Shown here: positions 10,103 to 53,472 of the stretch, in pieces
Numbering within the stretch: the first letter of the stretch is position 1
Layout: every line of letters begins with the position of its first letter
Assembly: GCF_001306175.1 (NCBI RefSeq)
Contig: NZ_LGKN01000004.1
Location: forward strand, 248,001 to 312,000
Reading direction: 5' to 3'
Source of the DNA: Ardenticatena maritima
Lineage (GTDB): Bacteria; Chloroflexota; Anaerolineae; Ardenticatenales; Ardenticatenaceae
DNA: 64,000 bases
Notes under the pieces: generated by a model
The model's input: only the letters and a program-made list of their open reading frames with translations
Told to the model about the DNA's origin: nothing
The model's database searches: none
Made by a program: the position numbers and the translations under genes

Positions 10103-10163
10103 CCGCAAGGCGGACGGGGGAAGAAAGGCGCAAACCATTTTCAACATGTGCAGGAGGAACGCA

Positions 10164-11848: not shown

Positions 11849-11909
11849 CGTTCGCCGACTGCTGTGCGGCACTGTTGAGGCAACCGTTGTCTGCATGAGG
11901 AGGAGCAAG

Positions 11910-13514: not shown

Positions 13515-13554
13515 AAAAAACAGCCCTGCCAGGTCTTTGCAACCTGGCAGGGCT
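13515..13554 (-). terminator. Bidirectional terminator between the GMC gene and hutI
   Basis: A perfect 13-bp stem (AGCCCTGCCAGGT with ACCTGGCAGGGCT, loop of 7). On the minus strand it is followed by a run of seven T, so it chiefly ends the hut transcript; it can also stop the GMC transcript. Confidence 0.85.
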
Positions 13555-13568
13555 ATGTGGCCTCGTCC

Positions 13569-14789
13569 TCACATCTCAACCAGTTCGCCCCCAATCCAGA
13601 CCTGCGCAATGACGTCCGGCGCGCCCAGCGTGTAGAGGGCGTCGCGCCAATCGGCGCTTGCCAGCACGAGAAAATCGGCGCGGCAGGCTTCTTCCAGTCG
13701 CCCCCGGTCGCGCAAGCCTAACGCGGCAGCGGCATTGACCGTAGCAGCGGTGAGCGCCTCGGCGGGTGTCAGTCCATTCAGGCGCACGGCAAGCGCGGCA
13801 GCCATTTGCATGGAAAAAAGCGGGCTTGACCCCGGATTGAGGTCGGTGGCGACGGCGACGGGCACATTGGCATCAACAAGCCGCCGCCCCGGCGCAGGCG
13901 GCACGCCCAGGTGCAGGCTCACACCGGGCAAAAGCGTTGCCACTGTGCGCCCACGCGCCAGCGCTTCTATTTGTGCCTCGCCCGACGCTTCCAAATGGTC
14001 AACCGAGAGCGCCCCAAGTTCCACCGCCAGTTCAACACCACCCAGCGCATGAAACTGGTCGGCGTGGACTTTCAGCCCCAATCCGTGCGCTTTGGCGGCT
14101 TCCAAGATACGGCGGGCTTCTTCCACGGTGAACGCTTCACGTTCGATAAAGACATCAACAAAATGCGCCAGTCCTTCGCGCACCACCGTGGGGATAAGAT
14201 GCTCAACAACTTCTTGCACGTAGGCCTCACGCCCTTCCTCAGGGGGCACATGGATGAGCAACGTGGGGAAAAGCGCCGCGGGCGTCTCATCTTGCAAGCG
14301 GGCGATGACGCGCAACAGGCGCATCTCGGCCTCCGTCGTCAACCCATAGCCCGACTTCACCTCAATCGTTGCCGCACCGGAACGCAACAACGCCGCCAGG
14401 CGCGGCTTCGCCAGCGCCGCCAACGTCTCTTCGGACGCCACCGCCGTTTGGCGCACCGTCTGGTAAATGCCGCCGCCCGCCGCCAAAATCTCCTCGTAGG
14501 TTTTGCCCTGTGAACGCGCCTCAAAATCATCCAGCCGATGCCCACCCCAAACAGCGTGGGTGTGCGAATCCACAAACGCCGGAATGACGGCGCGTCCACC
14601 CAGGTCAACCACACGGTCGTGGTCGCCGTTCCAGTCGCGTAGAGCGCCAATCCAGATGAGCCGCCCATCCTGCACGGCAAACGACGCTTCAGGCAGGAGA
14701 TGGAGCAACCCTTGCAACGCGCCGCGGTGCAAACCGCCCCCCAGCGGTGTAGCCAGTTCAGCGCAGTTCGTAAACAGTGTGATGCTCAT
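13569..14789 (-). CDS. hutI: Imidazolonepropionase
   Basis: Third step of histidine degradation: hydrolyses 4-imidazolone-5-propanoate to N-formimidoyl-glutamate. 406 aa amidohydrolase. Metal-site motifs VDSHTHAVWGG (first His pair), HADQFHALGG and ATDLNPGSSP (metal Asp) are all present. Last gene of the hutU-hutG-hutI operon, 11 bp after hutG. Confidence 0.95.
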   Translation of the reverse strand: MSITLFTNCAELATPLGGGLHRGALQGLLHLLPEASFAVQDGRLIWIGALRDWNGDHDRVVDLGGRAVIPAFVDSHTHAVWGGHRLDDFEARSQGKTYEEILAAGGGIYQTVRQTAVASEETLAALAKPRLAALLRSGAATIEVKSGYGLTTEAEMRLLRVIARLQDETPAALFPTLLIHVPPEEGREAYVQEVVEHLIPTVVREGLAHFVDVFIEREAFTVEEARRILEAAKAHGLGLKVHADQFHALGGVELAVELGALSVDHLEASGEAQIEALARGRTVATLLPGVSLHLGVPPAPGRRLVDANVPVAVATDLNPGSSPLFSMQMAAALAVRLNGLTPAEALTAATVNAAAALGLRDRGRLEEACRADFLVLASADWRDALYTLGAPDVIAQVWIGGELVEM

Positions 14790-14800
14790 CGCGTTTCCTC

Positions 14801-15712
14801 TTAGGGCGTCTGTTCAGATGCGGCAACCGCCAGCATGATTTCCACCAGCAAACGCGCCGCTAACAAGGCACTGCTTCCACTGGTGTCGAGATAGGGCGTC
14901 ATCTCCACGAAGTCAACCCCCACAATGCGATTGCGGGCGGCGGTTGCCTGAATGATACAAACGGCTTCGCGGAATGACAACCCGTCCGCTTCCGGGCTAC
15001 TTGTGGCGGGGAAGATGGCGGGGTCGAGCGCGTCAACATCGAATGACAGATAGACAGGCTTCCCTTCCGGCAAGAAGGTTTCAATGTCGGCGTCGAACAG
15101 GTCTTCGCGAAAGACAAGGCGATGCCCACGCTTGACTGCGGCATCCACCGCTTCACGGTCGAAGCGCACGCCACGCAAGCCAATGGTGGTAATGTGGCGC
15201 AGATTGGGCAAGACTTCCACCGCCCGCCGAAACGGGCTGGAATTGGAGTAGCGCGTCTCGTTGCGCATGTCGGTGAAATCCAGATGCGCATCGATCTGCA
15301 CCACGTGCAAATCGTCCACGTCGTCGAACGCGCGCAAGAGTGGGAAACTGACGCTGTGGTCGCCGCCCACAAAGATGGGCAGCGTGGCGCGTTGGCGCAC
15401 GGCGCGCGCGGCGGCGGTGATACGGTCGAACGCCAACAAGGGTTCGAGTGTGGGCAGGTCAACGTCGCCCGCGTCCACGAGGTGGTAACCGACAAGGCGG
15501 TAGCCATGGCGTGGGTGGTAGTAGCCTTCGGGCGGCAGGGCGTAGCGCAGGCTGGCTTCACGGATGGCGCGGGGGGCGAAACGCGCCCCAGGGCGGTAGC
15601 CGACGGTAATGTCGAACGGCACGCCGAGAAACGCGGCGTCGGCGTGCCATTCTTCATCCAGTGCATGGGATTCTGCACGGAAGAAGGTCGCAATTCCGGC
15701 AAAGGGCAACAT
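14801..15712 (-). CDS. hutG: Formimidoylglutamase (arginase/agmatinase family)
   Basis: 303-aa ureohydrolase with the three binuclear Mn motifs GGDHS, DAHLDF and SFDVDALDP. By sequence alone it could be an agmatinase. Its place between hutU and hutI, with no spacing from hutU, supports the histidine pathway role: cleaving N-formimidoyl-L-glutamate to glutamate and formamide. Confidence 0.82.
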   Translation of the reverse strand: MLPFAGIATFFRAESHALDEEWHADAAFLGVPFDITVGYRPGARFAPRAIREASLRYALPPEGYYHPRHGYRLVGYHLVDAGDVDLPTLEPLLAFDRITAAARAVRQRATLPIFVGGDHSVSFPLLRAFDDVDDLHVVQIDAHLDFTDMRNETRYSNSSPFRRAVEVLPNLRHITTIGLRGVRFDREAVDAAVKRGHRLVFREDLFDADIETFLPEGKPVYLSFDVDALDPAIFPATSSPEADGLSFREAVCIIQATAARNRIVGVDFVEMTPYLDTSGSSALLAARLLVEIMLAVAASEQTP

Positions 15713-17377
<1,665 letters not shown>

Positions 17378-17421
17378 GGTTTCACTCCTTCGTGAATTTC
17401 GGTTGGTTGTCGGGTGTGAGT

Positions 17422-17449
17422 AGTATACCAACGAGCCATCATCTCACAA
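17422..17449 (-). promoter_or_regulatory. Putative sigma-70 promoter for hutUGI
   Basis: Minus strand TTGTGA, 16 bp, TATACT, about 45 bp upstream of the hutU ATG. A sequence match only. Confidence 0.45.
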
Positions 17450-17508
17450 AGCCATCAAACGGCTCGCTGCCGCGCCGTTTTTCCTCTCACATGCGAGCAG
17501 TGTTCTGT

Positions 17509-17536
17509 TTGGCTGGTGGGAAGGTGAAGGTATAAT
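17509..17536 (+). promoter_or_regulatory. Putative promoter for the 17604 membrane protein
   Basis: TTGGCT, 16 bp, perfect TATAAT at 17531-17536, followed by a leader of about 60 bases. Confidence 0.55.
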
Positions 17537-17603
17537 CGCCGCCCCGAAAGCGTCCATGCAACTGAATAAACCACCAAAATCTCAAGGACTCAAAAGGAAA
17601 CCT

Positions 17604-19712
17604 ATGCGGTGGCGCCTACATATTGCAAGCCTGCTTCTCCTCTGGATGATAACGGCCAACTGGCTGTCAAAACATCCAGCGCTCCTTCTTCCACCACCCC
17701 ACGGGACAGCCGCTTTTCCCATCTCGGCCATTGCCCTGGCGGTACTCATGGGGCTTGTGCTCTTCCTGCCGGGATTGGCATTCCTCTCTTTTTTACCATT
17801 GCCACTCAGCACATTTGAACGTTTTATCCTGGCGCCCGCTGTCAGTTTACCCTTTTATCCGCTCATGGTGTTCTTTGCCGCCCAACTCGGCATCACGCTC
17901 ACCCCTCTGGCTATCTGGGGGCTCATCATCACGGCGAGCATTGTTCTCATCTGGCGCGGGAAAACGGGCGCGTGGCATCTCGATGTTTTCACACTCACCG
18001 CATGTGTGCTTGTCCTGCTCTTATGGGGAAGCCGCTTCTGGGTGGTGCGTGAAATGCTTGCACCAGCCTGGGGCGATGGCGTGCAACATAGCATCATTGT
18101 ACAACGCATGCTGGAAGAAGGGGGGCTTTTTTCGTCATGGGAACCGTATGCCCCCGCACAAACATTCACCTACCATTTTGGTTTCCACGCCACTGCGGCG
18201 GCTTTCGCCTGGCTAAGCCACCAACCGGCTCATCTCGCTGTTTTGCTCATTGCGCAAGCGCTCAACGTTGCCGCCGTGCTGGTGCTCGCCGCCCCCGTTC
18301 TAGCATTCACGCGCGGTCAGCGGTGGAGCGCCCTCGTCGCCCTCCTCGTCGCCGGTTTCCTGAGCCGCCACCCCGCTTTTTATGCCAATTGGAGCCGTGA
18401 TACACAACTCGCCGGACAGGTCATTTTACCGGCTTTATTGTGGGTGTTTCATCGCTGGTGGTTCGATGCGAAACGCCCACCCCGGGCTTTCTTGGTGCTG
18501 GCCGCCTGGTTTGCCGCAGGCTTACTGCTCACACATTACCGCGTTGCACTGCTTGCGGCATTGGCAGCGCTTGCATGGGGGGGTGTTGCCTTCTGGCGTT
18601 GGCGTACCACACCAGGCGAATGGGTTGCCCGCACAGCCACGTTGGGCATGGCGGGACTTGTGGGCGCTTTGTCTGTTTCGTCCTGGTTTTGGAGCCTGCG
18701 CCGAGGTTCGTTCGATGAGTACGCCGCACAGACTTTCAACACGCTTCCGGACGAACGCCGCGCGCAACTATTCCAGGAAATGCGCACCATCTGGGGCATG
18801 GTCCCTGCCTACTACCCCACATGGCTTGTAGGAAGCGGAATGCTGGCAGGCGTGTTTGCACTTGTACGGCGATACCACTGGGCATGGGCGATTGCCACAT
18901 GGTGTTTTTTGTCATTCGCGGCTTCAAACCCTTTCTTCTTCGGCATTGGCGGCAACAATTTCATTTCCAACTTCACGCTTATGATTGCCTGCTACATTTT
19001 GCTGGCTTTGGTTCTCGCCGCGAGCATTGCCGGAAGTTTGCAACGCCTCACAACGTCACGATTTGAACCATTCTTGAGCATTCTCCTCATCACTCTTGCC
19101 TTGCTGGGAAGCCGACAGCAAATCGGCATCGTTGAACCCGGCTATCAAATGCTCACCCAGGATGACGTGCAGGCTTTCGAGTGGATTCGTGCCCATACCC
19201 CCACCGAGAGCCTGTTCCTCATCAATGGGTTTCTGGCGTTCAACGACACTGTTGCCGTCGGCTCGGATGGTGGTTGGTGGTTGACCTACTTCACAAAGCG
19301 CCCCATCCTCATTCCACCGCTCATTTCCACATTGGAACATAACCCACCAGGGCAACGCCCCATTGACATTCGCCACATTGTCCTTGACATTCAAGCCAGC
19401 CAGGGGGAACCGGCAGCGCTGCGCGCAGTCCTCTGTCGCGCAGGCATCACCCACATCTATCTTGGCGCTGACCGCGGCACGATTGGCGGACCAGGCGTCC
19501 CGCTTGTGCCTGAAGAATGGCTTCATGCGCTCCCCGACGCTCACCTGCTCTTTGAAGCAGGCAAAGCCCAGGTATGGGAATTCGACCGTGCAACATGCCC
19601 AACAGAGGAAAACGCCGCCAATCCGCCCAGCGCGTTTGACACAACCCAACCCACTGCTATAATCACGCGTGCTTTCTGGCTTTTTCCATTATGTGCATCA
19701 GCGCGGGCCTGA
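17604..19712 (+). CDS. Large polytopic membrane protein, GT-C glycosyltransferase-like
   Basis: About 702 aa from ATG 17604, which follows AAAAGGA; an in-frame ATG at 17556 is possible but has no such site. At least ten hydrophobic segments fill the first two thirds, with a charged region at about 130-170 (WGDGVQHS), and a soluble C-terminal domain carries Cys residues. Layout resembles dolichyl-phosphate-mannose type glycosyltransferases, but I see no diagnostic motif, so it may be a different membrane enzyme. The consensus promoter for rplU lies inside its last 77 bases. Confidence 0.75.
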   Translation: MRWRLHIASLLLLWMITANWLSKHPALLLPPPHGTAAFPISAIALAVLMGLVLFLPGLAFLSFLPLPLSTFERFILAPAVSLPFYPLMVFFAAQLGITLTPLAIWGLIITASIVLIWRGKTGAWHLDVFTLTACVLVLLLWGSRFWVVREMLAPAWGDGVQHSIIVQRMLEEGGLFSSWEPYAPAQTFTYHFGFHATAAAFAWLSHQPAHLAVLLIAQALNVAAVLVLAAPVLAFTRGQRWSALVALLVAGFLSRHPAFYANWSRDTQLAGQVILPALLWVFHRWWFDAKRPPRAFLVLAAWFAAGLLLTHYRVALLAALAALAWGGVAFWRWRTTPGEWVARTATLGMAGLVGALSVSSWFWSLRRGSFDEYAAQTFNTLPDERRAQLFQEMRTIWGMVPAYYPTWLVGSGMLAGVFALVRRYHWAWAIATWCFLSFAASNPFFFGIGGNNFISNFTLMIACYILLALVLAASIAGSLQRLTTSRFEPFLSILLITLALLGSRQQIGIVEPGYQMLTQDDVQAFEWIRAHTPTESLFLINGFLAFNDTVAVGSDGGWWLTYFTKRPILIPPLISTLEHNPPGQRPIDIRHIVLDIQASQGEPAALRAVLCRAGITHIYLGADRGTIGGPGVPLVPEEWLHALPDAHLLFEAGKAQVWEFDRATCPTEENAANPPSAFDTTQPTAIITRAFWLFPLCASARA
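19636..19663 (+). promoter_or_regulatory. Consensus sigma-70 promoter of the rplU-rpmA-rpmE operon
   Basis: TTGACA, 16 bp, TATAAT: both hexamers perfect. It lies within the 3' end of the upstream membrane-protein gene. Confidence 0.88.
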
Positions 19713-37424: not shown

Positions 37425-39944
<2,520 letters not shown>

Positions 39945-39975: not shown

Positions 39976-40004
39976 ACAGAGCAAAGGGGCACGAGAAAAA
40001 TACA
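39976..40004 (-). promoter_or_regulatory. Two-block upstream element, copy at GH9
   Basis: Minus strand TGTATTTTT, 14 bp, CTCTGT. Candidate promoter read by the nearby ECF-like sigma factor. The first block is exactly the loop of a 10-bp hairpin (39986-40014), so it may double as the terminator of the upstream gene. Confidence 0.5.
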
Positions 40005-40055: not shown

Positions 40056-43000
40056 TTATGGCTGAATGGGCGGGTAGGCGTTTTGCACCAGGATTTCAAA
40101 ATGCTCAGGGAACCAGCGTCCGGCGTGTGGGGCGTTGGGCAATGCCCCCGTTGGGTACGCCGAGTTGTACAGGTTCTGCCCGTTGGGGTCGCACATGCGG
40201 TCGAACTTCTTGTTCGGGTCAACGGGGTCAACAATGCCCGGTTCGCTCACGCCATCCGATTCACCGGGCGGCTTGATCCACACATAGGCGTCAATTCCCG
40301 GCACGGGGCTGGCTTGCGGGCGCTCGCCAATCCCGCTTGCCTGGTTGCACCAATTGCCGCGGTGGTAGCGGCGGTCCACGCGCGACTCATCCACATACAC
40401 GTCCACGTTGGTGGTATTGGTGCTTGGCGCGGTCGGACGGCTGCGCCCATAACTCGACCCACCCCACCCATTGCGGCTGGTGTCAATCAGCATGCCGATA
40501 CTGGACGGGAGGCCTTGCTGGATAAACGCCTGACGCAACGCCTGCGCAAAGTCCAGTTCATCGAAGTAGGGATTCCATTCGTAAAACTTTGCCGAGCGCA
40601 CCGGTTGACCGCCAATGGTAAGGCTGGAATCCGGCAAATACGGCTCTTCCAGCGGCGTGTAGTTCGATACGTTGGTGACGAAGCCGTCAATGCTGTTGAA
40701 CCCATCCGCTGTGCCTTGCACCACCTGCGTGTAGAGCGTGACAGCCTTTTGGAAGTTGTCGCTCCAGCCCAACCAGCCTGAATGCGCAATGTCGAGGTAG
40801 ATGTACACATTCGGCAACTGGTGGAGCGTGTCAATGGCGTACTGAATCCCCTGCACATAGGCGCCCGTCGCGTCGGCTTCGGCACATGCCGGCACAGAGA
40901 GATTCGTCACCAAGTTGGGCAACGAGTCCGGCTCGATAATGGCCACAATGCGCAAATCGCGATACTGCGGTTGGGCGAGGATGTTATAAATCACGTCAAT
41001 GTAGTCGGTTTTGTAGCGTTGCAGCCCATTTTCCGCGATGAGCAGTTCACCATTCGAGGCGTCCGCAGCACAGTCGCGGTTGGGCAAATCGTAAATCACG
41101 ATGGTGATGAGGTTCGCCCCTTGCGCCAGGGCTTCATCCAGATGCCCCTGCAAGCCACGCCCTTCGGTAATCGCGCCGATACGGTCCAGCCACACAGCGG
41201 TTGAATACTGCGCGACTTTGGCCATTTTCTGCCCAAGCACGCCCCCCGTCTGCTGCGCCTGGTTCAGCACATTCGCCGCCCAATCCGGGTTGACGTACCA
41301 GGTCGCGCCGACAAAGGGGTTATCCAGGTGCGTGCCGGGGATAGGCGTAGGCGGCACACTGGTGGGTGTCGGTGTCGCCGGCGGCTGTGTAGGCGTAGGC
41401 GTGGCCGGCGGTTGGGTGGGCGTGGGTGTGGGCGGGGTCGGCGTGCCTGCCGCGCCATTGCACGGCTGCCCGTTCAGCGTGAAATCGGTCGGTGTGGGGT
41501 TCGCGCCGCTCCAATTGAGGTTGAAGCCGAACGTAACCGAGCCGGCCGGCGCAATGGTGCCATTCCACCCAACATCGCTCGCCGTCACAACTGCGCCGCT
41601 TTGTGAAAGCGTGACGTTCCACCCGTTCGTAATCTGCTGGTTGCCGGGGAAGGTCCATGTCAGCGTCCAACCGTTGATGGTGGCGCTCCCCGTGTTCGTG
41701 ATGGTTACGTCCACCGTCGCCCCGCCCGACCACTCGTTGCGCACCACGTAGTCCACGCGGCAGGCGGTTTCGCCGACGGGCGGCGGCGTGGGCGTGGCTG
41801 GTGCTGGCGTGGGTGTCGCCGGCGGCTGTGTGGGCGTGGGTGTGGCCGGCGGTTGGGTCGGCGTGGGTGTGGCTGGTGCAGGCGTCGGTGTGGGGGTCGG
41901 TGATGCCGGTGGTTGGGTGGGCGTGGGTGTGGGCGGGGTCGGCGTGCCTGCCGCGCCATTGCACGGCTGCCCGTTCAGCGTGAAATCGGTCGGTGTGGGG
42001 TTCGCGCCGCTCCAATTGAGGTTGAAGCCGAACGTAACCGAGCCGGCCGGCGCAATGGTGCCATTCCACCCAACATCGCTCGCCGTCACAACTGCGCCGC
42101 TTTGTGAAAGCGTGACGTTCCACCCGTTCGTAATCTGTTGGTTACCGGGGAAGGTCCATGTCAGCGTCCAACCGTTGATGGTGGCGCTCCCCGTGTTCGT
42201 GATGGTCACGTCCACCGTCGCCCCGCCCGACCACTCGTTGCGCACCACGTAGTCCACGCGGCAGGCGGTTTCGCCGGCGGGCGGCGGCGTGGGCGTGGCT
42301 GGTGCTGGCGTGGGTGTCGCCGGCGGCTGTGTGGGCGTGGGCGTGGCCAGCGGTTGGGTCGGCGTGGGTGTGGCTGGTGCAGGCGTCGGTGTGGGAACCG
42401 GCGTGATGCCGCCGCCGAAGAATTCGCCATAGAGCGCATTGGCCAACGCCACATCAACCTGCGCCCAGAAACGGTGATAGCGGAATTCGGGCGCTGGGCC
42501 GCCGTTCAAGTAGGCTTCGACCTTCGGCCAATCGGGGTCTTGCGTGTACTTGGGGCGCAACCCCAAGAACGTCACACCCGGCTGAATTGTAGCGCCCTGC
42601 GCATTGGTGCCACTCCACCCTGTGGGGATAAAGACTTCATCACCAAAGCGGATGTAGTCTTCGCGCACTTCGGGCACCGAAACGCCCTTGTCGTCGCGGT
42701 ACAACGTCCACATGCGGTCCAGCAATTCTTTTGCCAGCAATTGCGACTCTGTGTCGCCCGTTGCCGCGGCGTAGTAGATCAGCGCCTTTGCCAGCGCCGC
42801 CGTGACGCCCACGTCTTTGTTGTAGGCGACAACGGTGACGTGCAAGTTGTTATTCGGCCCCGGATTGGTCGGGTTCCACGGGTCTGGTTGCCCACTCCAT
42901 TCAAGCGTCACGGGGATTTCATAATCGCCGTTGGGCAACAGATGCACAACACTCTTGATCCACGCCACCCATTTGTCCATGACTTCGCCGGCACGCTGGT

Positions 43001-45167
43001 CGCCGGTCAGGTAGTAGTACTCCGCCACGCGCTCCATAGACCAGGCTTGCCACCCAAACCAGGTGTTGCTACCGGGGTCGTGATAGACCGGATGATCGTC
43101 ATACGCGAGACCATAGAATTCGGAGACACCCGCCGGGCGTGGGTCGTAGCGTCCGTTCCAGGAGTTTGTCGCACCACCGGCAATCGCCCCTTCCGCCGAT
43201 TGGAGCCAGCGGTAGAATTCGATTTGGCGGTCCATGCTCACCGCCCAATCTGTTGCGCCGTTGGGCGAAGCCGGCTTGAACGCAGGCACCTGGCTGAGCA
43301 CCCATGCCGCGACGGGGTTTTGGTAGCCAAAGTGCACATGGCTGGAACCGATACGCCACGCCCAACCACCGCCGCTCACAGGACCGCCCCACGAGTAGTA
43401 CCACGAGAGCAGGTAGTGCGCGCTGTCATAGCCGGTTCCCGCCGGGCAATTGGGGCTTTCGCACCCAATCGTCTTGAAGTACTTGTCAAAGAAAGCGTAG
43501 CGCAGGTAGTCGCCCATTTTGGCGGCTTTGGGCACCAGGCTATCCACCAAAGGCGAACCGCCCTGCGCGTCAGCCCAAACTTTCGCCCAATACATGGCTT
43601 GAATGGCGCGGGCGTCGGCGTCAGGTGCGTTGGTGTAGCGGTACTGCTGGGCATACTGCCAGCCCTGCGGTTGTTCAATGAAGAGGTCGAGGAAGCCATT
43701 GGGGCCGCCCCAGTTGAAAGCTTCCCACGAGGGATGCGGAACCGTTTCCCACACCGATTCCTCTGCACCGCGCTGAAAGGTGTTGATGTACGAAGGCGCG
43801 GTGGTACCATCGCCACGTTGCCCGTAGCCGTACCAGTTATCAACGTCCAGCAACCAGTGCATGCCGTAGATGTCCGACGTGCCATACGTTTGGGCGAGTT
43901 CGTTGCAGATGGGGTCGTCCCCAACGCTGACATTCGGGTCAAGCGGCACAGGGTAATCGCTGGGGGCGTCCCCTTCGGGCGCGTACGAGGCTTTGTAGGC
44001 GCAATTGTTGCTGGGCTGGTCTTGGTGCGAGGGGATGATGTACGTCTCCATGTTGTTCCACGCATCCGCCAGATACGACCAATCCCCCGTCACGCGGCCG
44101 TACATGGCTTCCAGCCAGAGCCAGTAGCTGTACGCTTCGCTGGTGGTTTCATGCCCGTAGTCGGGCGCTTCGACAATCAGCGTTTCGACGGAGTGATAGG
44201 GAATGCCTTGCGGGCTGAAATACCCATTCGCGGGGTCGTGAATCTCATTCCACAATTCCAGGAAGCGGGCGACGTATTCGTTCGTCGGCGGTGCTCCGCC
44301 GCCATTCCCCGGCGGTGTGGCGGTTTGTGTTGGAGCGACTGTGGGCGTCGCCGTCGGCTGTGCGCCCCCACCGCCGTTGACGGTGACCGAGAACCCACTA
44401 CTTGCCAAACCAGTGCCCCCCTGCCAAATCTCAAAGCCGGCTTCGATGGCGTGCAAATACCAGGACGATTGCACATATCCACGCTGGATGGCATCGTTGA
44501 TGAACGCCAAAATGTCGAGGTTGGTGACACTCTGCGTCGGCGTGGTACGACGATACGCAATGTAGTGCCAATCAATGGGCGTGTACCAGACTTCCCACGT
44601 CGCGCCGTCAATCGTCACCGTGTCAACAACCGCCCCCGCCGGCTGGACGCCGCCATTCCAATCCAGCCAAATCATGATTTCAGCGCCGCCGTTGTAGCCA
44701 TTCGTGGTATCAAGCGAGGGACTGAGCCAAATATCGTACGCCACATTCCAGGCGCCGCTGTTGACAGTGGTGATTGACCAATCGCTGGTGACACTGCTCA
44801 ATTGCGCCACCGGCACCGACAACCCACTGTTTTGCGTGCAGTTGCCCCAATGGCACCCCTGCACAATCGAAGGATAGGCGGCGGGTGCGCCATTTGTGGG
44901 GTTGTTGTGCGCCGATTGCGTCACAACAAAATCACCTGTGGCATCATTGACTTCGATACACTGGGCTGTATCGGCGCCCCACACATTGTTTTGCACGTAG
45001 AATGTGCCGCCGGCCGCCCAGGTGTAGCCCCATTTTTCGCACAATTGAATGGTTGCCCCCTGGACAGGCGCAACAGCACCAAACGCAATAAAAGACAGGA
45101 AAACGATCAGGAGAAGGTGGATGAGCGGGGACGGTTGGCGTATTGGACACCAGTTGCTTTGCGACAT
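40056..45167 (-). CDS. Trimodular secreted cellulase GH12-GH48-CBM2-CBM2-GH6
   Basis: 1703-aa exported enzyme with three catalytic domains. Signal peptide about 1-37. GH12 endoglucanase 38-265: nucleophile E163 (AEIMIWLDW) and acid/base E246 (FEIWQGG). GH48 reducing-end cellobiohydrolase 297-918, with the acid-bearing motif [14 protein letters not shown] at 332-345. Pro/Thr linkers separate CBM2 967-1069 and CBM2 1134-1236. GH6 domain 1279-1703: D1360/D1365 (YDLPNRD), proton donor candidate D1414 (EPDS) and D1638 (KPPGESDG), most like non-reducing-end cellobiohydrolases. One chain therefore joins endo, reducing-end exo and non-reducing-end exo activity around two cellulose anchors. All catalytic residues checked are intact. 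Confidence 0.95.
41441..42442. repeat. 501-bp tandem duplication (CBM2 plus linker)
   Basis: The segment starting at 41441 recurs 501 bp later at 41942, covering a whole CBM2 and most of the adjoining linker. By eye only about six bases differ over some 480, so the duplication is recent or kept uniform by gene conversion. It is in frame (167 codons). Confidence 0.9.
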
Positions 45168-45260: not shown

Positions 45261-45290
45261 ATAGAGGCATCAAAGGTTGAAAAAAATACA
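45261..45290 (-). promoter_or_regulatory. Two-block upstream element, copy at GH12-GH48-GH6
   Basis: Minus strand TGTATTTTT, 15 bp, CTCTAT: the most divergent of four copies (one base longer spacer, one mismatch in the second block). About 95 bp upstream of the start codon. Confidence 0.4.
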
Positions 45291-45358: not shown

Positions 45359-47011
45359 TTACCGGCAGGGCTGCCCGTTGAGCGTGAAGGTGGTCGGCGT
45401 CGGGTTCGCGCCGTTCCAATTGAGGTTGAAGCCAAACGTGACCGAGCCAGCCGGCGCAATCGTGCCGTTCCAGGCGGCGTTGGTGACTGTCACGCTCGCA
45501 CCGGTCTGCGTGTAGGCGCCGTTCCAGAGGTGCGCAATCTGCTGGTTGCCGGCGAAGGTCCATGCCAGCGTCCAGCCAGTGATGGTGCTGGCGCCGGTGT
45601 TCGTGATGGTCACGTCCACCGTCGCGCCGCCAGGCCACTCGTTGCGCACCACGTAGTCCACGCGGCAGGCGGTTTCGCCGGCGGGCGGCGTGGGCGTCGG
45701 CGGCACAGGGGTCGGCGTGGGCGGGACGGGCGTGGGGGTGGGTGTTGATGGCGGCAGCGTCGGCGTGGGCGTCCCCGGTTCAGGTGAAGGCGTCGCCGGC
45801 GGCGTGACGCTCCCTTGCCCAATAAGCGGGTACTGAATCGTTTCCAGCAAAGCCTGTTTTTCAGCGTGCACAGTCGTCCAATCATCCAGCAAAATGCCGC
45901 CGGTATCGCCCGAATTCGGGTTGAGCGACCAGAATGTCCAACTCAGCCCTTTCTGCTGGATATAGGGCAAAAACTTTTGCAGCCATTGCTTGTCGCTCTC
46001 ATCCACGTAGCGCGTGCCAAATTCACCAATCAGCAGGGGGGCTATGTTCTCGTTATAAATGTAGCCCCAGTAATGGTCCCACACCGCCGGCAAATTGTCA
46101 GGGTAGTTGGGGTCCGAGAACCACTCTTGTGGGAACACCGAGGCGGGGTATTCGTGTGGCGAATAGACCAGACGGTTGGGCACATTCAAGCGCACAGGAT
46201 ACTCGCGCACGCCCAGCAAATTGCCACCCCACCAGGTGCAATCAGCGTCTTTCCAGGGGTCGTTCTCACCACCAGGCCCATAGCATTCCACGCCTTCAAC
46301 GATAATCAGCAAATCGGGGTTGATCGCCAAAATGGCGTTTCCAGCACGCTCCGCCGCCAGCCGCCAATCACGCGCTGGGTCGCCACAGCCCCAACAAGCA
46401 TCGTCGTGCGGCTCGTTGCGCAAGTCAACCGCAACCACGGTATCGTTTCCGGCATAGCGGCGCACCAGCATTTCCCAGTCGGCGATCCAGCGACTCTCAG
46501 GGTAATCGGCGGTGTACCAAAGCCCACCTTCTTGCGCACTCGCCCCCGCATTGGAGCGGTGGTTATCCAAAATCACCTTCAAGCCCCGTTGTCCGGCGCC
46601 TTCGATAATCTTGTCCATAATTTCCAGCGAGGTCAGTCCCACCAAATCGGGGTTTTTGGAGTAATCAATCCCCGTCGGCATGGTGCCCGGATTCAGCACC
46701 TCATTGGAAAAAGGCAAGCGAATACTGTTGTAGCCCAGCGCTTTGATTTGATCGAGCACCTCTTCCCAATTGCGCGACCACAAGCCATGCACCACGTTGT
46801 TGCCCGTCTCAAAGCCAAACCAGTTGACCCCGCTAAACGCCACCACATTGCCATTGGCGTCGCAAATTTGGTTGCCGCATGTATGCAAATAACCGCTGGT
46901 TGCCGCTTTGGCAGACGGCAGCGGTGCCGAAGCCGACCAGCCCAGAAGCCAGGCGCTCCATACCACTGCCATCACGACCATACAGGCGTAGCGCCATGAA
47001 AAAGACCGCAT
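45359..47011 (-). CDS. Secreted GH5 endoglucanase with CBM2
   Basis: 550 aa from ATG 47011 (GAGGGGG upstream; the longer in-frame extension has no signal peptide layout). Signal peptide about 1-37 (cut near AKAA). GH5 TIM barrel about 38-395 with acid/base E200 (VAVDLRNEPHDD) and nucleophile E330 (LLIGEFGTRY). Pro/Thr linker 403-443, CBM2 447-550 with bracketing Cys. Expected to cut internal beta-1,4 bonds of cellulose. It has its own terminator and upstream element, so it is transcribed separately from the protease gene before it. Confidence 0.95.
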   Translation of the reverse strand: MRSFSWRYACMVVMAVVWSAWLLGWSASAPLPSAKAATSGYLHTCGNQICDANGNVVAFSGVNWFGFETGNNVVHGLWSRNWEEVLDQIKALGYNSIRLPFSNEVLNPGTMPTGIDYSKNPDLVGLTSLEIMDKIIEGAGQRGLKVILDNHRSNAGASAQEGGLWYTADYPESRWIADWEMLVRRYAGNDTVVAVDLRNEPHDDACWGCGDPARDWRLAAERAGNAILAINPDLLIIVEGVECYGPGGENDPWKDADCTWWGGNLLGVREYPVRLNVPNRLVYSPHEYPASVFPQEWFSDPNYPDNLPAVWDHYWGYIYNENIAPLLIGEFGTRYVDESDKQWLQKFLPYIQQKGLSWTFWSLNPNSGDTGGILLDDWTTVHAEKQALLETIQYPLIGQGSVTPPATPSPEPGTPTPTLPPSTPTPTPVPPTPTPVPPTPTPPAGETACRVDYVVRNEWPGGATVDVTITNTGASTITGWTLAWTFAGNQQIAHLWNGAYTQTGASVTVTNAAWNGTIAPAGSVTFGFNLNWNGANPTPTTFTLNGQPCR

Positions 47012-47046
47012 ATTGTTCCCCCTCTTTGTTCTTGTGTTGTTGCTGT

Positions 47047-47060
47047 GCAACGGCCGTTGC
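47047..47060. promoter_or_regulatory. 14-bp palindrome at the GH5 promoter (operator candidate)
   Basis: GCAACGGCCGTTGC, lying immediately downstream of a TATAAG box at 47063-47068 and so over the expected transcription start, a classic repressor position. Confidence 0.4.
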
Positions 47061-47067
47061 CGCTTAT

Positions 47068-47096
47068 ACAGAAGAAGGTTTTTCCGAAAAAATACA
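47068..47096 (-). promoter_or_regulatory. Two-block upstream element, copy at GH5
   Basis: Minus strand TGTATTTTT, 14 bp, TTCTGT, then ATAAG. About 57 bp upstream of the GH5 start. Confidence 0.5.
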
Positions 47097-47108
47097 TCAT
47101 TCTGTAAA

Positions 47109-47139
47109 AGAAAAACGGCCCGTTTTGCAACGGACCGTT
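47109..47139 (-). terminator. Terminator after the subtilase gene
   Basis: 11-bp stem AACGGTCCGTT/AACGGGCCGTT (one G-T pair), loop of 4, T run on the minus strand. Confidence 0.85.
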
Positions 47140-47160
47140 TCATTGAAAGACGAGTTATGT

Positions 47161-49161
47161 TTACTGCGAGCAAGGCGCTCCATTCAAGGAAAGCCCGGCG
47201 GGCTCAAATCCGGCCGCATTTCCTTGAAGCGTAAATCCAAAGGAGACATACCCGCCGGCAGGTACAACATGGTTCCAATCTGCATTGGTGACCACAACAT
47301 GCCCCCCATTTTGCATAAACGAACCGTTCCACATGTTGGTGATGAGCGGGACAGACGCCCCCCAATCCCATTCAAGCGTCCACCCATCCACATCAGCCGG
47401 CTGGTTGTTGGTCACCACGGCGTTCACCGTTGCACCACCATCCCAACTTGATTCAACCGTGAATGTGACGGTGCAGGCATTCGCGTTTGTCGGCTGCGCC
47501 GGTTCTTGCCCCCACACCAGACGCCCGTCATAGTACACGGTGACACGTTCCCACTCCTGCCACGTCACCACATCCGCCCCAAAGGAGTAATCGTTGGTCT
47601 CATCCTGGGCGCTCCATTCAGCATCATGCACATTCACCTGAATGAACTCACCGTCGCCAACAGCCTTGCCGCCATAGAGCAAGCCAGCCCCATCTGTAAA
47701 GCCAACCTCAACAAACGTGTGTCCATCTGTTGTTTGCCCGGTTGCAACCGTCACATTCTCATTGCCCTGGGCGGCATAGTCCACTACGGCCTGCAAAGCA
47801 TGCGCCGTTTCCGGCGTCAACCAGTAGCGAATGCGTAGTGCACTGTATGGAATCGTGCCGCCATCATTCACAAGACGAAACTGTGGGACAATCGTGGTGG
47901 TATCCCAAGCGGTATCTCCACGGCGATACTGCAACCGCACAGCGATATCCGTTTCGCCGCGCGCCTGCAAGAGGGCGTCATACAGGTCAATGCGCTTTGC
48001 TTCAGGGTGCTGCACCAGCGGACGCCCTGTCTGGCGCAGGGTGTTCACGACACACGCCACATCACACCCCGGCACGGAACGCAAAAGCGCCGCCGCACCA
48101 GCCGCAAAAGGCGTTGCCATGGAATTGCCGCTCCACACGGCATAGCCGCCATTGTAGTATGCCGAGAAAATCTCTCGCCCAGGGGCGTACACCTCCGCGA
48201 CGCCATTCTGGAACGTCGAAAAGTCGGTGAGCAGGTCGTAGCGATCGGTAGCCCCAACAGAGACCACGCCATCATACAGTGCGGGATACCCCAGCACGTT
48301 GACGCCGCCCGCCGCTACAATCAGAACACCGTGCGCCTGGGCATATGCGACGGCCGCTTGCAAAGCCGGCGCATCTTCAGGCCCATGCCCGCTCAAATTG
48401 ATGATGTCGGCGCCATGATCAACCGCGTAGAGAATGCCTTGAATAGCGTCGAAGTACGAGCCGCGACCATCGCTATCGAAAATGCGCACAGGCATGATAC
48501 GTGCATCAGGAGCGACCATCGCCACAATGCCGGCCACATGCGTACCATGTCCTGCGGCTTCATCAATCGCCCCATCCCCATCCTGGTCAATGCCATTGGG
48601 GACATCGTCCGGCAGAGAGTCCCCATCAATCACATCGTAGCCCGGCACAAGCTTGTCCACCAGCAAGGGGTGATCCAGGTCTACGCCGGTATCCAGCACC
48701 GCGACCACAACGCCCTGCCCGGTTGCCAGCTGGTGCGCTTTGTCCAAACGCACCACGCCACGCGCCCACTGGTCGCCATATTCTGCGGGAACACCGTCAA
48801 AGCCAATGTAGCGAGGCTGTGCCGTAAGCGGCGCACCATCAAAACCAATGTACCGCGGCTGACTATCAAGGAGCACATCACGGCTCACGCTGAGCACACG
48901 CGCATCCGACGCAAGTTGTGCGCCCACATCGGCACTCGCCTGAAGCGCAACCAATGCAAGGGCTGGCACTTCACCCACCACCGCAACACCATACTCAGCC
49001 GCCAAGCCTGCCCCATCGACACCCGGCGCAAGGGTCACTAGCCAGGTGTATGTCTCAGGTGGCGCATCAGCCAAAACGTGCGCGGGTCGCCCCCATACGC
49101 ATACGCCCAGCACAAGCACAACCAAGCCCAACAAACGCCCCCAGACCCGTCGAGAGACCAT
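47161..49161 (-). CDS. Secreted subtilisin-like protease (S8) with CBM3 and CBM2 modules
   Basis: 666 aa from ATG 49161 (AGGAGGG upstream). Signal peptide about 1-32, an I9-like propeptide about 38-97, then the motif QPRYIGFDG twice (101-109, 115-123). S8 domain about 130-400: D157 (VAVLDTG), H208 (GHGTHVAG), S347 (GNSMATPFAAG), and a Ca-binding type loop DQDGDGAIDE. The oxyanion Asn appears as AAGGVN (N288), two residues later than the usual AAGN. Residues 405-553 look like a CBM3 and 561-664 like a CBM2. The cellulose-binding tail would hold the protease on plant fibres or near the cellulases. Third gene of the 172-aa/CHAT operon. Confidence 0.9.
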   Translation of the reverse strand: MVSRRVWGRLLGLVVLVLGVCVWGRPAHVLADAPPETYTWLVTLAPGVDGAGLAAEYGVAVVGEVPALALVALQASADVGAQLASDARVLSVSRDVLLDSQPRYIGFDGAPLTAQPRYIGFDGVPAEYGDQWARGVVRLDKAHQLATGQGVVVAVLDTGVDLDHPLLVDKLVPGYDVIDGDSLPDDVPNGIDQDGDGAIDEAAGHGTHVAGIVAMVAPDARIMPVRIFDSDGRGSYFDAIQGILYAVDHGADIINLSGHGPEDAPALQAAVAYAQAHGVLIVAAGGVNVLGYPALYDGVVSVGATDRYDLLTDFSTFQNGVAEVYAPGREIFSAYYNGGYAVWSGNSMATPFAAGAAALLRSVPGCDVACVVNTLRQTGRPLVQHPEAKRIDLYDALLQARGETDIAVRLQYRRGDTAWDTTTIVPQFRLVNDGGTIPYSALRIRYWLTPETAHALQAVVDYAAQGNENVTVATGQTTDGHTFVEVGFTDGAGLLYGGKAVGDGEFIQVNVHDAEWSAQDETNDYSFGADVVTWQEWERVTVYYDGRLVWGQEPAQPTNANACTVTFTVESSWDGGATVNAVVTNNQPADVDGWTLEWDWGASVPLITNMWNGSFMQNGGHVVVTNADWNHVVPAGGYVSFGFTLQGNAAGFEPAGLSLNGAPCSQ

Positions 49162-49203: not shown

Positions 49204-52137
49204 TTATTGAGGCCATTGAGGTCGATAAAACGGATTCCCCATGACAACGAAGGGCGCCCAGTAATAGGGGTGTGGATACCACTCACGGAGAACATGCTGA
49301 GCATGCCGCAAAGCACTGGCAACAGGCATTCCCGCCGCTAACGCCGCATAAAATTGCTTCATCAACTTGGCTGTCGAAATATCATCAACCATCCAGAGGC
49401 TTACAACAACTGAACGCGCCCCCGCCGCAAAGAAGCCGCGGCATAACCCCACCAACTCATCACCAACCGCCACATGCGCGCGTCCCGTTTCACAGGCGCT
49501 CAAGGTCACCAAAGGCGCCATGGTCTGCATTTCGTACACATCGCTGACAAAAAACCAGCCATCTGCCAACTTCAAGGCCGAAAAGAAAGGATTGTCCGAG
49601 CGAAAAACAGCATGCGTGGCCAGGTGCAAGCACGCCGGCGTTTGCGTCAACTCACGCAGCACATTGAGCGTGGCCGTATCGCCCACATACGCCGTTGCCT
49701 CGGGAAAAATGTGCCGCACAAAATTGACTTCGGCCTCAACATAGGGAACGGAGGCGTCGTGTATGCCGAGAAGAAGCGGAGGTTGTTCCACATGCGTGGG
49801 GAAGTCCTGAACCGTGTGGCAAAACAGGGTTGCACTTGGCGCATACGTCACAATATGTTGATCCAGGAGATACGTTTCACCATCCGGCGTCAAAGCGTGG
49901 AAGGGGATATAATGGAAAAGACCGTGCGGTACAATCACCAGGGTTTCAATGCCATCAAGCCATGTTTCAATAGGGGCTATCAGCGCCGCATACAATGTCC
50001 GCAAATCACGATGAACCGCTTCCCATAAAATGTGCTGATACCGTTGCCGATACTCGGTACCATACCCGAATTTATTGAAAGTAAACCGCAAATGCTGCAA
50101 CGTTTCTTTGAGCGTGTCCATGTCAACGGAGAGCGAACGGGAGACAACCTGCTCATGGGTGATGCCAAACAGAATAACCTCACCCTCGCGGCTTATGTAA
50201 AATTCAAGGAGCGCACTCTTTGGGGGTAATGCTTGCTGAACGTCTTCGACGCGCACCGTCCAAACCGGATTGCGCGGCGTTGCCGCCATTTCGGGCACAT
50301 GCCAATGTTTCAGCAAGCGCGCCAAACGCGCTTCACGGTCGGCAATCGCCGACATCAAGGTCGAGACCGGTTGGGCTTCGCGCATGCCGCTTTCCATCAC
50401 CGTTTCGTAAAAGCGGTTGTAGTACCAATGCAACTCGCGCTTGAGGTCATCCATTTGCCGCCAGAGCGTCTTTTCATGGGGCGAAAGGTGTTTGTGCTGG
50501 CGCACCCGTTTTTCAAGCGAAAGGCGTGTCAACAAATCCAATAACGCACGCGATTTTGCCCGCTCAATACCCGAAAACGCTTCACGCTGCGCCTGCGGCG
50601 TTTGTTCTTCCAGGCAAAACTGCACAAATTTGTCGTACACGGGCAATTTGTCTTGCAAAAACGCCATTTGATACATCTCACTCTGCAAGCCCGCGTACAT
50701 TTGCTCGATATGCGCAATGGCTTGTTTGTATGCCCGTTCCGCCTGGCGGCGTTGTCCCCGCCGATGCGCCACCTGCCCCAACCCAAACGCTCCACGATAC
50801 GCCACGGGAAACACGCGCGCCATATCAACACGCTGAAAATGCGCCTGCGCTTCGTCAAGGTCATTGTCCGCTAGCGCCATTTCTCCCAGCAGCACATCAC
50901 ACTCAGCAACGCGCCCAACCACACCATAGTCGGCAAACCGCTCACGAGCCGCCAAGACATACGTCCGAGCGTCTTCCCAAGCCCCCTTGCGCCACAGCAA
51001 ATAGGCGCGATGCAAGTCGGCAACCGCGCTCCACAGCACATTGCCCTGCTCACTGAACAGGGCTTGCGCCTGGTCGAGCGCCTGCAATGCGGCACACACA
51101 TCACGCAGATGCGCCACCGCAATCGCTTCGTTCAACCACAAGCGCGCCGCCTCCCAGTTCATGGCATGCGCTTCAAAACAAGCGCGCGCCGCTTGCGCCG
51201 TCTCTAACGCTTCATGCCACAGATTGAGCGCCAGATAACAATCGCTGCGATGCAAATCCACATAGGCGACTTCCACAGGCAACGCTTGTTCCTCAAAGAC
51301 AGAGCGCGCTTGCTGCAACAAGCGGAGCGCCGACTGGTATTGCCCCTGGGCGAAGGCCAGATACCCCATGTTCACATCAATCTGCGCGACCACCCGCGAT
51401 TCGCCGGTATCCTCAAAATAGCGGCGGGCTTCACGCAGGAGCGCAACAGCTTCACGAAAGGCGTTCAATTCGGCGTGCACATTGGCATCGTTGATATTAA
51501 CAATCATCAACCGACGCCAATCCCCCAACGCTCGGAAGGCTTCGCGCGCACGGGCATAACACTGACGCGCCTCCTCAAAACGCCCCAAACGCGCGAGCAC
51601 ATTCCCCCGATTCGAGAGCACCTTGGCAAGCCGCGCCTGATCGCCCACACGCACAAACACCTGCTCTGCTTGCGCAGAATAGTGTAAAGCCTGCTCATAG
51701 TGGCCGAGGTACAAAAGTGCATCAACATACCCCACCGTCACCCGCGCAACCGAGGCGTCGTCTCCGCGCTGGCGGTGAAGGGCAATCGCTGTCTCAAAGC
51801 ACCCCACCGCCTGCTCATATTTCCCCAAATGGCGGAAGGCTTTGGCGCGCGTATAGGCGCTTTCTGCACGTACAGCGTCATCCTGCCAGACGCGCGCGCA
51901 GGCATCGAGAACATCGGCAAGTTGCAACGTGAGGTGTGGATTGAGGCGCTTTGTGCGCTCGACGGCGTCGTGTATCTTCGTCAACAACGCTTCATCCGGC
52001 TGGGGAACGTGGGTGCGCAACCACGCACACCGCGATTCCAAATCGGCTAAATCGAGGAGCGTTTGCACGGTGGGGTCTTCTATTTCGATATGGTCTTCTG
52101 GATTCATCGCCACTCGGATACCATCAACACTCAGCAC
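49204..52137 (-). CDS. TPR-CHAT caspase-like protease
   Basis: 977 aa, no signal peptide, so cytosolic. Residues about 60-480 are tetratricopeptide repeats (Ala/Tyr-rich helical pairs such as HLGKYEQAVGCFETAIALH), the middle is helical, and the C-terminal about 300 residues form a CHAT domain. The caspase-type dyad is H842 (LHLATHA) and C882 (TLSACETG), both intact. CHAT proteins are clan CD peptidases switched on by their TPR partner surface. Start taken at GTG 52137 (GAAAGAG upstream); ATG 52107 is an alternative. Lies 31 bp after the 172-aa gene and 42 bp before the CBM-subtilase. Confidence 0.92.
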   Translation of the reverse strand: MLSVDGIRVAMNPEDHIEIEDPTVQTLLDLADLESRCAWLRTHVPQPDEALLTKIHDAVERTKRLNPHLTLQLADVLDACARVWQDDAVRAESAYTRAKAFRHLGKYEQAVGCFETAIALHRQRGDDASVARVTVGYVDALLYLGHYEQALHYSAQAEQVFVRVGDQARLAKVLSNRGNVLARLGRFEEARQCYARAREAFRALGDWRRLMIVNINDANVHAELNAFREAVALLREARRYFEDTGESRVVAQIDVNMGYLAFAQGQYQSALRLLQQARSVFEEQALPVEVAYVDLHRSDCYLALNLWHEALETAQAARACFEAHAMNWEAARLWLNEAIAVAHLRDVCAALQALDQAQALFSEQGNVLWSAVADLHRAYLLWRKGAWEDARTYVLAARERFADYGVVGRVAECDVLLGEMALADNDLDEAQAHFQRVDMARVFPVAYRGAFGLGQVAHRRGQRRQAERAYKQAIAHIEQMYAGLQSEMYQMAFLQDKLPVYDKFVQFCLEEQTPQAQREAFSGIERAKSRALLDLLTRLSLEKRVRQHKHLSPHEKTLWRQMDDLKRELHWYYNRFYETVMESGMREAQPVSTLMSAIADREARLARLLKHWHVPEMAATPRNPVWTVRVEDVQQALPPKSALLEFYISREGEVILFGITHEQVVSRSLSVDMDTLKETLQHLRFTFNKFGYGTEYRQRYQHILWEAVHRDLRTLYAALIAPIETWLDGIETLVIVPHGLFHYIPFHALTPDGETYLLDQHIVTYAPSATLFCHTVQDFPTHVEQPPLLLGIHDASVPYVEAEVNFVRHIFPEATAYVGDTATLNVLRELTQTPACLHLATHAVFRSDNPFFSALKLADGWFFVSDVYEMQTMAPLVTLSACETGRAHVAVGDELVGLCRGFFAAGARSVVVSLWMVDDISTAKLMKQFYAALAAGMPVASALRHAQHVLREWYPHPYYWAPFVVMGNPFYRPQWPQ

Positions 52138-52168: not shown

Positions 52169-52687
52169 TCAAGCAGTCCCCTCAGCAGGAAACGCCTGCA
52201 CATCCAAAGGTTCAACAACGATATCGCGCGTTTCAAGCAATATACGCATGGCGTATGTCCCGGCGGGAACAAGCGTCAGCCGAAAGTAGCCCATTTCATC
52301 CAACAGTACACGCCGATACACTTCGCCGCCCGCAAGCAATTGCACTTCTGTTCCCTCCAACGCCGCCACATCGCCGTCTCGCGGCAACACTTGGCCATGC
52401 ACGGTAAACATCCCTTCTTCTTCCTCTTTGAGAATCTGGACATCAATATCCATGTCGTCCAGCGAGAACAGCGTTTGGCGCTCTTGCAAAGCACCACGCA
52501 CGCCGGAAGGCGCCATACGCGACCAACTGTCAAACGTCAAAGATGCTGTGCTCACCAAACGATCCTGCAAGCGTGATTGATGCCGCTTGAAGGATTTCAA
52601 CACACGTTTGAGCACATCGGGCGGCGGGTCAATCCATTCCTGTCCCTCAAATTCAGGGTCTTCAAACGGGTCATGTGGCGCGGGCAT
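52169..52687 (-). CDS. 172-aa sigma-neighbour protein with carboxypeptidase-regulatory-like domain
   Basis: No signal peptide. N-terminal half is acidic then helical (DPPPDVLKRVLKSFKRHQS), with TLFSLDDMDIDVQIL before a beta-rich C-terminal domain (about 92-165: GMFTVHGQVLP, LEGTEVQLL, GYFRLTLVPAGTYAMRI) like the regulatory Ig-type domain of carboxypeptidases. I do not know a described function; its place between an ECF sigma gene and a TPR-CHAT protease suggests an adaptor, anti-sigma factor or protease substrate. Confidence 0.8.
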   Translation of the reverse strand: MPAPHDPFEDPEFEGQEWIDPPPDVLKRVLKSFKRHQSRLQDRLVSTASLTFDSWSRMAPSGVRGALQERQTLFSLDDMDIDVQILKEEEEGMFTVHGQVLPRDGDVAALEGTEVQLLAGGEVYRRVLLDEMGYFRLTLVPAGTYAMRILLETRDIVVEPLDVQAFPAEGTA

Positions 52688-52747: not shown

Positions 52748-52776
52748 ACAGAGCGCAACCGCGTGCGAAAAATACA
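52748..52776 (-). promoter_or_regulatory. Two-block upstream element, copy at the 172-aa/CHAT operon
   Basis: Minus strand TGTATTTTT, 14 bp, CTCTGT, right after the sigma-factor stop codon and about 60 bp before the 172-aa gene. Both blocks and the spacing are the same as in the GH9 copy. Confidence 0.5.
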
Positions 52777-52784
52777 TCTTTGCC

Positions 52785-53387
52785 TCATGAATTTTCGGGT
52801 TTTGAGGTTTTTTCTTCTTCCATATCGGTCAGAATACGCCGCAACTTTTGCAGGCAACGACTCCGCGTCGGGCCAATGCTCCCCAACGGCATGTCAAGGA
52901 GTTCCGCAATCTCTTGATACGAAACCCCATCCTCTTCGTCAAAAAACAACAGCGCCAAAAGTCGGCGGCAACGCTCATCCAGGCGCTCCAACGCCTCTCG
53001 CAGAAGCTGTTGTTCTTCGCGCCGCATGACACGCTCTTCAACACGCTCTGGGTGCACCACAACAACATCCTGTATGTCGAGCATGGGCGCATCAGGCTGT
53101 GTGCGATACCGACGAATACAAACGCGCCGTGTCACGGTCATCAGCCACGATGAAAGCCGCCGACGATTTTGCAAGGTGTGCAGTTTTTCCAGCAAAATCA
53201 AGCAAACCTCTTGAAAGACTTCGTCGGCCACATGCTGGGGAAATCCAAATCGCAGGGGAATGGTGTAAATGAGGCGCGCATAGCGGTTGATGAGTTCTTC
53301 CCACGCGGCTTCATTGCCTTCCAGACAGGCTTGTACAAGGTCTTCATCCGAGCACGTCTCAAATGCCATCTGTGAAACCGTTTTCAT
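52785..53387 (-). CDS. ECF-like RNA polymerase sigma factor
   Basis: 200 aa from ATG 53387 (AAGAGG upstream). Sigma region 2 about 15-95 (AWEELINRYARLIY, ADEVFQEVCLILLEKL, LSSWLMTVTRRVCIRRYR) and region 4 about 130-187 (DGVSYQEIAELLDMPLGSI with the helix-turn-helix). Regions 1 and 3 are missing, as in extracytoplasmic-function sigma factors. No transmembrane anti-sigma gene is adjacent; instead a 172-aa cytosolic protein and a TPR-CHAT protease follow. Confidence 0.93.
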   Translation of the reverse strand: MKTVSQMAFETCSDEDLVQACLEGNEAAWEELINRYARLIYTIPLRFGFPQHVADEVFQEVCLILLEKLHTLQNRRRLSSWLMTVTRRVCIRRYRTQPDAPMLDIQDVVVVHPERVEERVMRREEQQLLREALERLDERCRRLLALLFFDEEDGVSYQEIAELLDMPLGSIGPTRSRCLQKLRRILTDMEEEKTSKPENS

Positions 53388-53443: not shown

Positions 53444-53472
53444 AGTATACCGCACTCACGGCGGAAATTCAA
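53444..53472 (-). promoter_or_regulatory. Sigma-70 promoter of the ECF gene
   Basis: Minus strand TTGAAT, 17 bp, TATACT, about 57 bp upstream of the start. It does not carry the two-block element, so the sigma gene itself looks housekeeping-driven. Confidence 0.65.

Follow-up and report, generated by a model that had tools for sequence, protein, structure and literature searches.

A subtilase with CBM3 and CBM2 modules as a probable component of an ECF-sigma regulon controlling cellulose breakdown

The secreted subtilase with CBM3 and CBM2 modules encoded at 47161..49161 on the minus strand of the window (the whole 64 kb stretch of DNA that was analysed) is probably the part of a cellulose-degrading ECF-sigma regulon that works outside the cell, docked on cellulose; the regulon would be switched by CHAT cleavage of an anti-sigma factor. 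It is encoded by the fourth gene of an operon whose first three genes specify an ECF sigma factor, an anti-sigma-like protein and a TPR-CHAT (caspase-like) protease. The first-pass annotation, a reading of the sequence only, had left out two of these genes, those of the sigma factor and the anti-sigma-like protein.

Domain layout and active site of the subtilase

The open reading frame runs to 49194, 11 codons upstream of the ATG at 49161. The latter is the probable start since it is preceded by the ribosome-binding site AGGAGG, in agreement with the gene end given in the first-pass annotation. From N to C terminus, the 677-aa ORF is composed of a signal peptide, a prodomain (48865..49053; residues 48-110), the S8 catalytic domain (48076..48720), a CBM3 module (47500..47955) and a CBM2 module (47170..47475), all on the minus strand. 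The earlier claim that S8, CBM3 and CBM2 stand on one protein was borne out by Pfam searches, in which all three domains exceeded the curated cut-offs: Peptidase_S8 (PF00082) at residues 159-373 with E 1.8e-42, CBM_3 at residues 421-496 with E 2.1e-8 (34.9 bits versus a cut-off of 22.4), and CBM_2 at residues 574-675 with E 2.4e-22. The CBM3 profile also matched the solved CBM3 structures 6d5b, 2l8a and 1nbc, and the CBM2 module matched 3ndy and 1exg, the latter aligning with three surface Trp of the window copy. In a comparison of CBM3 sequences by eye, the window copy keeps the Asp-Tyr and Trp of the planar strip and not the Arg, and the homologues at loci L177-L179 and L189 keep the Asp-aromatic pair, Arg and Trp. 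Both modules are predicted to bind cellulose.

The AlphaFold2 model of the subtilase is confident over the prodomain (pLDDT about 95) and the catalytic domain, and Foldseek matched it to unprocessed pro-subtilisins, the prodomain included, and to thermitase. The model, built from an alignment of 22 sequences only, is poor over CBM3 and CBM2, and the assignment of these modules therefore relies on the profile matches and the solved relatives. The linker between the prodomain and the catalytic domain (48784-48861, minus strand) contains the peptide QPRYIGFDG twice. Exact linker duplications, with differing peptides, are present in 10 of 38 module subtilases versus 0 of 19 other subtilases, and it is possible that the duplicated peptides are processing sites or released peptides.

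With its catalytic triad (D168, H216 and S358), its PF00082 match and its subtilisin fold, the window protein belongs to the S8 family. It has V298 at the position of the oxyanion-hole Asn (Asn155 of subtilisin BPN'), and N357 replaces Thr220 immediately before the catalytic Ser. Across the ten CBM3-bearing subtilases collected in this study, the Asp/His/Ser triad is intact in every case; the oxyanion Asn is absent in every case, with V, L, Y or A instead; and Asn stands at the Thr220 position in eight. The first six complete proteins have V, L or Y at the oxyanion position together with Asn for Thr before the catalytic Ser, and L188 and L192 repeat both changes. L189 has Leu at the oxyanion position and His at the Thr220 position. 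In L080, which branches deepest in the clade, the oxyanion residue is Ala and Thr is kept. Asn occupies the oxyanion column in 57 of 65 distinct S8 domains from the fetched loci, and in 57 of the 58 that are not from CBM3 subtilases; the sole exception among the latter, L017, is explained by a shift in the alignment of its AAGN.

This Asn is likewise missing from some accepted S8 members (PC2 has Asp instead), and its loss therefore weighs more on the claim of ordinary activity than on family membership. As the canonical Asn is lost, ordinary strong subtilisin activity of the window protein cannot be assumed. Thr220 of subtilisin lies near the oxyanion hole, which makes it a reasonable guess that the donor has been relocated to the Asn at this position. 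A simple dead pseudoprotease is disfavoured, given that the triad is intact and Thr220 has become Asn. The protein is comparable to thermitase, subtilisin and pro-Tk-subtilisin (I9/fervidolysin-type prodomain) in fold, prodomain and triad, and differs from them in the lost oxyanion Asn, the Asn at Thr220 and the C-terminal CBM3 and CBM2.

The operon and the CBM3-bearing clade

The four genes are read from the minus strand. The ECF sigma factor lies at 52785..53387, in an ORF that extends to 53459; its probable start at 53387 is below a sigma70-type promoter (53444..53472, minus strand; TTGAAT-N17-TATACT), and TTGACA-N17-TATAAC is found at the equivalent place in L177, L179 and L188. The protein has Sigma70_r2 and r4 regions only and scores 91 bits with TIGR02937, for which the cut-off is 42.9. 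The TPR-CHAT protease (49204..52137), which the first-pass annotation had correctly named as a neighbour along with the cellulases described below, has a His842 and a Cys882 that are invariant in nine module homologues.

The product of the second gene (52169..52687) is a short protein of 172 aa, with one amphipathic-looking helix, a CarboxypepD_reg-like C-terminal domain and no evident membrane span. The model of this C-terminal domain is a confident beta sandwich, and a fold search with the model gave no significant match. The HxxxCxxC zinc motif is present in many homologues and missing in the window copy. The family profile matches RsiW (3e-5), DdvA (9.6e-4) and, weakly, ChrR, and two members (L084 and L110) pass the zf-HC2 cut-off. 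From these matches we infer that the second gene would encode an anti-sigma factor. A further match of this profile is to the N-terminal end of a CHAT-domain protein of solved structure (PDB 8rot chain B, E 0.0017), and the anti-sigma and CHAT parts may thus be fused elsewhere.

The nearest relatives of the subtilase in the class and the phylum stand downstream of the same three genes. When GTDB genomes were scanned with the CHAT alignment, the same order of four genes came up in Chloroflexota, Acidobacteriota, Chthonomonadales, Rubrobacter, Modestobacter, Planctomycetes and Rubrivivax; most of these operons lack CBMs and cellulases. The operon that includes the subtilase is therefore widespread and looks regulatory, and as a rule it has no connection to cellulose. 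In some operons (L072:3266-5323 and L075:2726-4867), the gene behind CHAT encodes instead a divergent subtilase whose N-terminal region is long and shows no evident signal peptide. PADLOC gave only generic subtilase and TPR models on the locus, with no sigma or anti-sigma match, and an anti-phage defence system was set aside as it had no specific match. We found no description of a sigma/CHAT/subtilase operon or of CBM-bearing proteases in the literature, short of most subscription papers.

The first three CBM3-bearing subtilases were those of the window, L079 and L080, and CBM3 profile searches of 396 genomes of the class and of two smaller groups brought the number to ten. In a maximum-likelihood tree the ten form one clade (support 98/87; 96% of bootstrap trees). 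The CBM3 subtilases are thus of single origin, having gained CBM3 and sometimes CBM2 too; the number of CBMs varies between the subtilases of the window, L176 and L177-L179. They follow CHAT wherever the contig lets this be read; the contig of L176 ends upstream, and a second contig from that genome carries a sigma/anti-sigma/CHAT start (L227). The subtilase of L189 (7224-8999) ends in a hydrophobic segment with a basic tail, reminiscent of a cell-surface anchor.

Nine CBM3 loci could be read for neighbours, L080 being cut and left out, and cellulases adjoin six of them. In addition to the window these are L176 (GH10-CBM2), L177 (GH9-CBM3-CBM2-CBM2-GH48 and LPMO10), L178 (GH9 and GH5), L179 (GH9-GH48, behind a transposase gene) and L189 (a divergent GH9-CBM3-CBM2-cohesin gene). 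The cellulase-free loci are L079, L188 and L192, the last having a papain-type protease next to it. No GH5, 6, 9, 10, 12, 48 or CBM2 was found in the flanks of 34 CBM-free operons, 28 of which have at least 5 kb downstream of CHAT. A Fisher test on rounded counts (6/9 versus 0/26) gives p of about 5e-5, which is indicative only as the genomes are related.

A promoter-like motif in the operon and before the cellulase genes

The neighbouring cellulase genes, all on the minus strand, are GH5-CBM2 (45359..47011; wider span 45359-47173), GH12-GH48-CBM2-CBM2-GH6 (40056..45167) and GH9-CBM3-CBM2 (37425..39866). The last holds the only other CBM3 of the genome, and the second has an unusual set of cellulase domains in a single chain of 1703 aa. 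An intrinsic terminator with a 13-bp stem and a T tail (47112..47141, minus strand) is located 3' of the subtilase gene. Because it lies between this gene and GH5, the subtilase and the cellulases are probably on separate transcripts. Co-transcription is further disfavoured by the fact that GH5 has a motif of its own.

This motif, TGTATTTTT-N16-CTGT, is found on the minus strand as an exact pattern before anti-sigma/CHAT/subtilase (52748..52776), before GH5-CBM2 (47068..47096) and before GH9-CBM3-CBM2 (39976..40004), and as a variant with CTCT/CTAT as second box before GH12-GH48-CBM2-CBM2-GH6 (45262..45290). The operon and its putative cellulase targets thus have the promoter motif in common. 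Among the CBM3 loci, it lies between the sigma and anti-sigma genes in the window, L177, L178, L179, L188, L189, L227 and L229, and it also occurs upstream of cellulases. It is present in the same gap of many CBM-free operons and was not seen in that of L083, L089, L091, L100 and L122.

As a guard against circularity, we built a matrix solely from ten sigma/anti-sigma gaps of CBM-free operons in other genomes; these gaps were chosen for a visible motif, so that the training set is biased and the test is not. The four highest scores of the matrix in the window, all on the right strand, belong to the sites before GH5 (29.0), GH12-GH48-GH6 (27.7), GH9 (24.7) and anti-sigma/CHAT/subtilase (21.5), with a fifth-best score of 15.3; maxima in 20 random windows ranged from 11.6 to 19.5. 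A search of the whole genome (3.56 Mb) for the exact pattern, which was written after some of its sites had been seen, gave three sites, none of them outside this locus; the reversed pattern, used as a control, gave none.

Unlinked cellulase genes of other genomes with a CBM3 subtilase carry the motif as well: a GH9-GH48 gene in G659 (L228) and, in the CTAT variant shared with the operon of that genome itself, a GH9 gene in G027 (L237). In the CBM-free genomes examined for it, the motif stands before the subtilase or a different secreted protein and not before cellulases. Two such sites, before a secreted protein (L233:4804-6141) and before the subtilase itself (L235:685-2070), hint at an ancestral regulon. 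Chance was taken to account for the matches in L230, L231, L238 and G001, the last of which falls within a coding gene.

We infer that the motif is recognised by the ECF sigma factor of the operon. The typical ECF -35 box is GGAAC-like and TGTATTTTT is atypical in this respect, for which reason another regulator could read the motif. Cellulases of Actinobacteria are under cellobiose control by the LacI-type regulators CelR/CebR. An operator of this type, TGGGAGCGCTCCCA, lies between the motif and the start of the GH9-GH48 genes of L177 (upstream of 9170-14257) and L179 (upstream of 13311-17999), suggesting a second, cellobiose-type control of these two genes. It was not found in the 64 kb window, even at 2 mismatches, and a CelR-type operator was on this ground ruled out as the local regulator.

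The association with cellulases made in the first-pass annotation is consequently upheld as a link, through the motif in common and the recurrence in related genomes. Cellulases are not the primary partners of the subtilase, the constant ones being the sigma factor, the anti-sigma-like protein and CHAT.

Interpretation of the proposed circuit

The chance reading, an ordinary subtilase that picked up its CBMs by recombination and has no regulatory link, would fit CBM2 being a mobile module and the differing CBM numbers noted above. We consider it extremely improbable, as such subtilases turn up repeatedly, across several genera, beside sigma/anti-sigma/CHAT and cellulases, have a single origin and have the motif in common, and coincidental acquisition of the CBMs was ruled out on the recurrence and the common motif. 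A fibre-bound maturation protease that trims or releases the neighbouring cellulases, as suggested in the first-pass annotation, e.g. at Pro/Thr linkers, or removes cellulose-masking proteins is favoured by the intact triad of all ten CBM3 subtilases, the prodomain modelled with high confidence, CBMs of the same type as those on the cellulases, and co-regulation with them. However, all ten have lost the oxyanion Asn that 57 of 58 other S8 domains keep, and the CBM-free operons retain the subtilase despite having no cellulase to process; this role is possible and rather unlikely. The loss of the Asn to V, L, Y or A would agree with a subtilase fold that no longer has catalysis and acts as an adhesin or carrier on cellulose, which we find very unlikely, since the triad, whose loss one would expect in a dead enzyme, is kept clade-wide, and the Asn at Thr220 in eight of the ten could supply the missing hydrogen bond.

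The subtilase may also be a cellulose sensor, with the CBMs reading the substrate outside and a product released by the subtilase, perhaps a peptide and conceivably one from its own duplicated linker, reaching the TPR domain of the CHAT protein. The binding modules fit a regulon of cellulases for cellulose, one homologue (L189) has an anchor-like hydrophobic end, linker duplications occur in module subtilases and in none of the 19 others compared, and the arrangement would resemble RsgI anti-sigma factors, in which an outer CBM reports polysaccharide (PMC4711584). On the other hand, the operon has no membrane protein, most CBM3 subtilases look freely secreted and half of them lack the duplicated linker, and we regard a sensor as unlikely. 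The fuller version, a circuit unlike SigI/RsgI in which the subtilase, docked on cellulose and with its oxyanion hole rebuilt (Asn 155 to 220), makes an extracellular signal that cytosolic TPR-CHAT reads, cutting the anti-sigma factor and turning on the cellulase regulon, is distinctly unlikely.

In the preferred reading, that of a member of the ECF-sigma regulon, the sigma70 promoter would provide a basal level of the ECF sigma factor, which would be held by the soluble anti-sigma-like protein. A signal read by the TPR-CHAT protein would activate its caspase-like protease, which, by analogy with type III-E CRISPR, would cut the anti-sigma-like protein and free the sigma factor. The freed sigma factor would then transcribe the anti-sigma/CHAT/subtilase unit and, through copies of the promoter, the GH5, GH12-GH48-GH6 and GH9 cellulases. 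The subtilase would be exported and its prodomain removed, with CBM3 and CBM2 keeping it on the fibre alongside the cellulases. It is most likely a local protease of altered activity on fibre proteins or peptides, as an output of the regulon or a feedback on it.

Two known systems are close to this arrangement. In SigI/RsgI of Clostridium thermocellum, the anti-sigma factor has an outer CBM3, GH10 or PA14 (PMC4711584). Both there and, by prediction, here, an alternative sigma factor controls cellulase genes and its own operon via a common promoter, and in both an extracellular part that is encoded alongside the sigma factor bears a CBM3. Unlike SigI/RsgI, the window has an ECF sigma factor with a soluble anti-sigma-like protein and no transmembrane sensor, the CBM belongs to a secreted subtilase that is a protein of its own, a cytosolic TPR-CHAT protease comes in addition, and the promoter motif differs. 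In the type III-E CRISPR system (Craspase) of Csx29 (TPR-CHAT), Csx30 and CASP-sigma, CHAT cleavage relieves sigma inhibition (PMC10028731). Craspase shares with the window a TPR-CHAT protease whose gene accompanies those of an ECF sigma factor and of a protein that binds it, presumably so in the window. In contrast, the putative inhibitor of the window is short and of zf-HC2 type, with a CarboxypepD_reg-like domain, the operon continues with a secreted subtilase, and the window CHAT scores far too low for Csx29, at 61.5 bits with NF041237 versus a cut-off of 300. The operon apparently joins the working principles of Craspase and SigI/RsgI, using other components.

Regulation of ECF sigma factors by proteolysis is already known, and what is distinctive here is the combination of parts. 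If the proposed circuit is true, it would be a control switch for cellulolysis in Chloroflexota, with a predicted promoter that is testable gene by gene. It would also suggest cleavage of anti-sigma factors by TPR-CHAT as a general switch outside CRISPR, and Craspase may then have borrowed a pre-existing module. The subtilase clade with its changed oxyanion hole bears on the rebuilding of a textbook active site.
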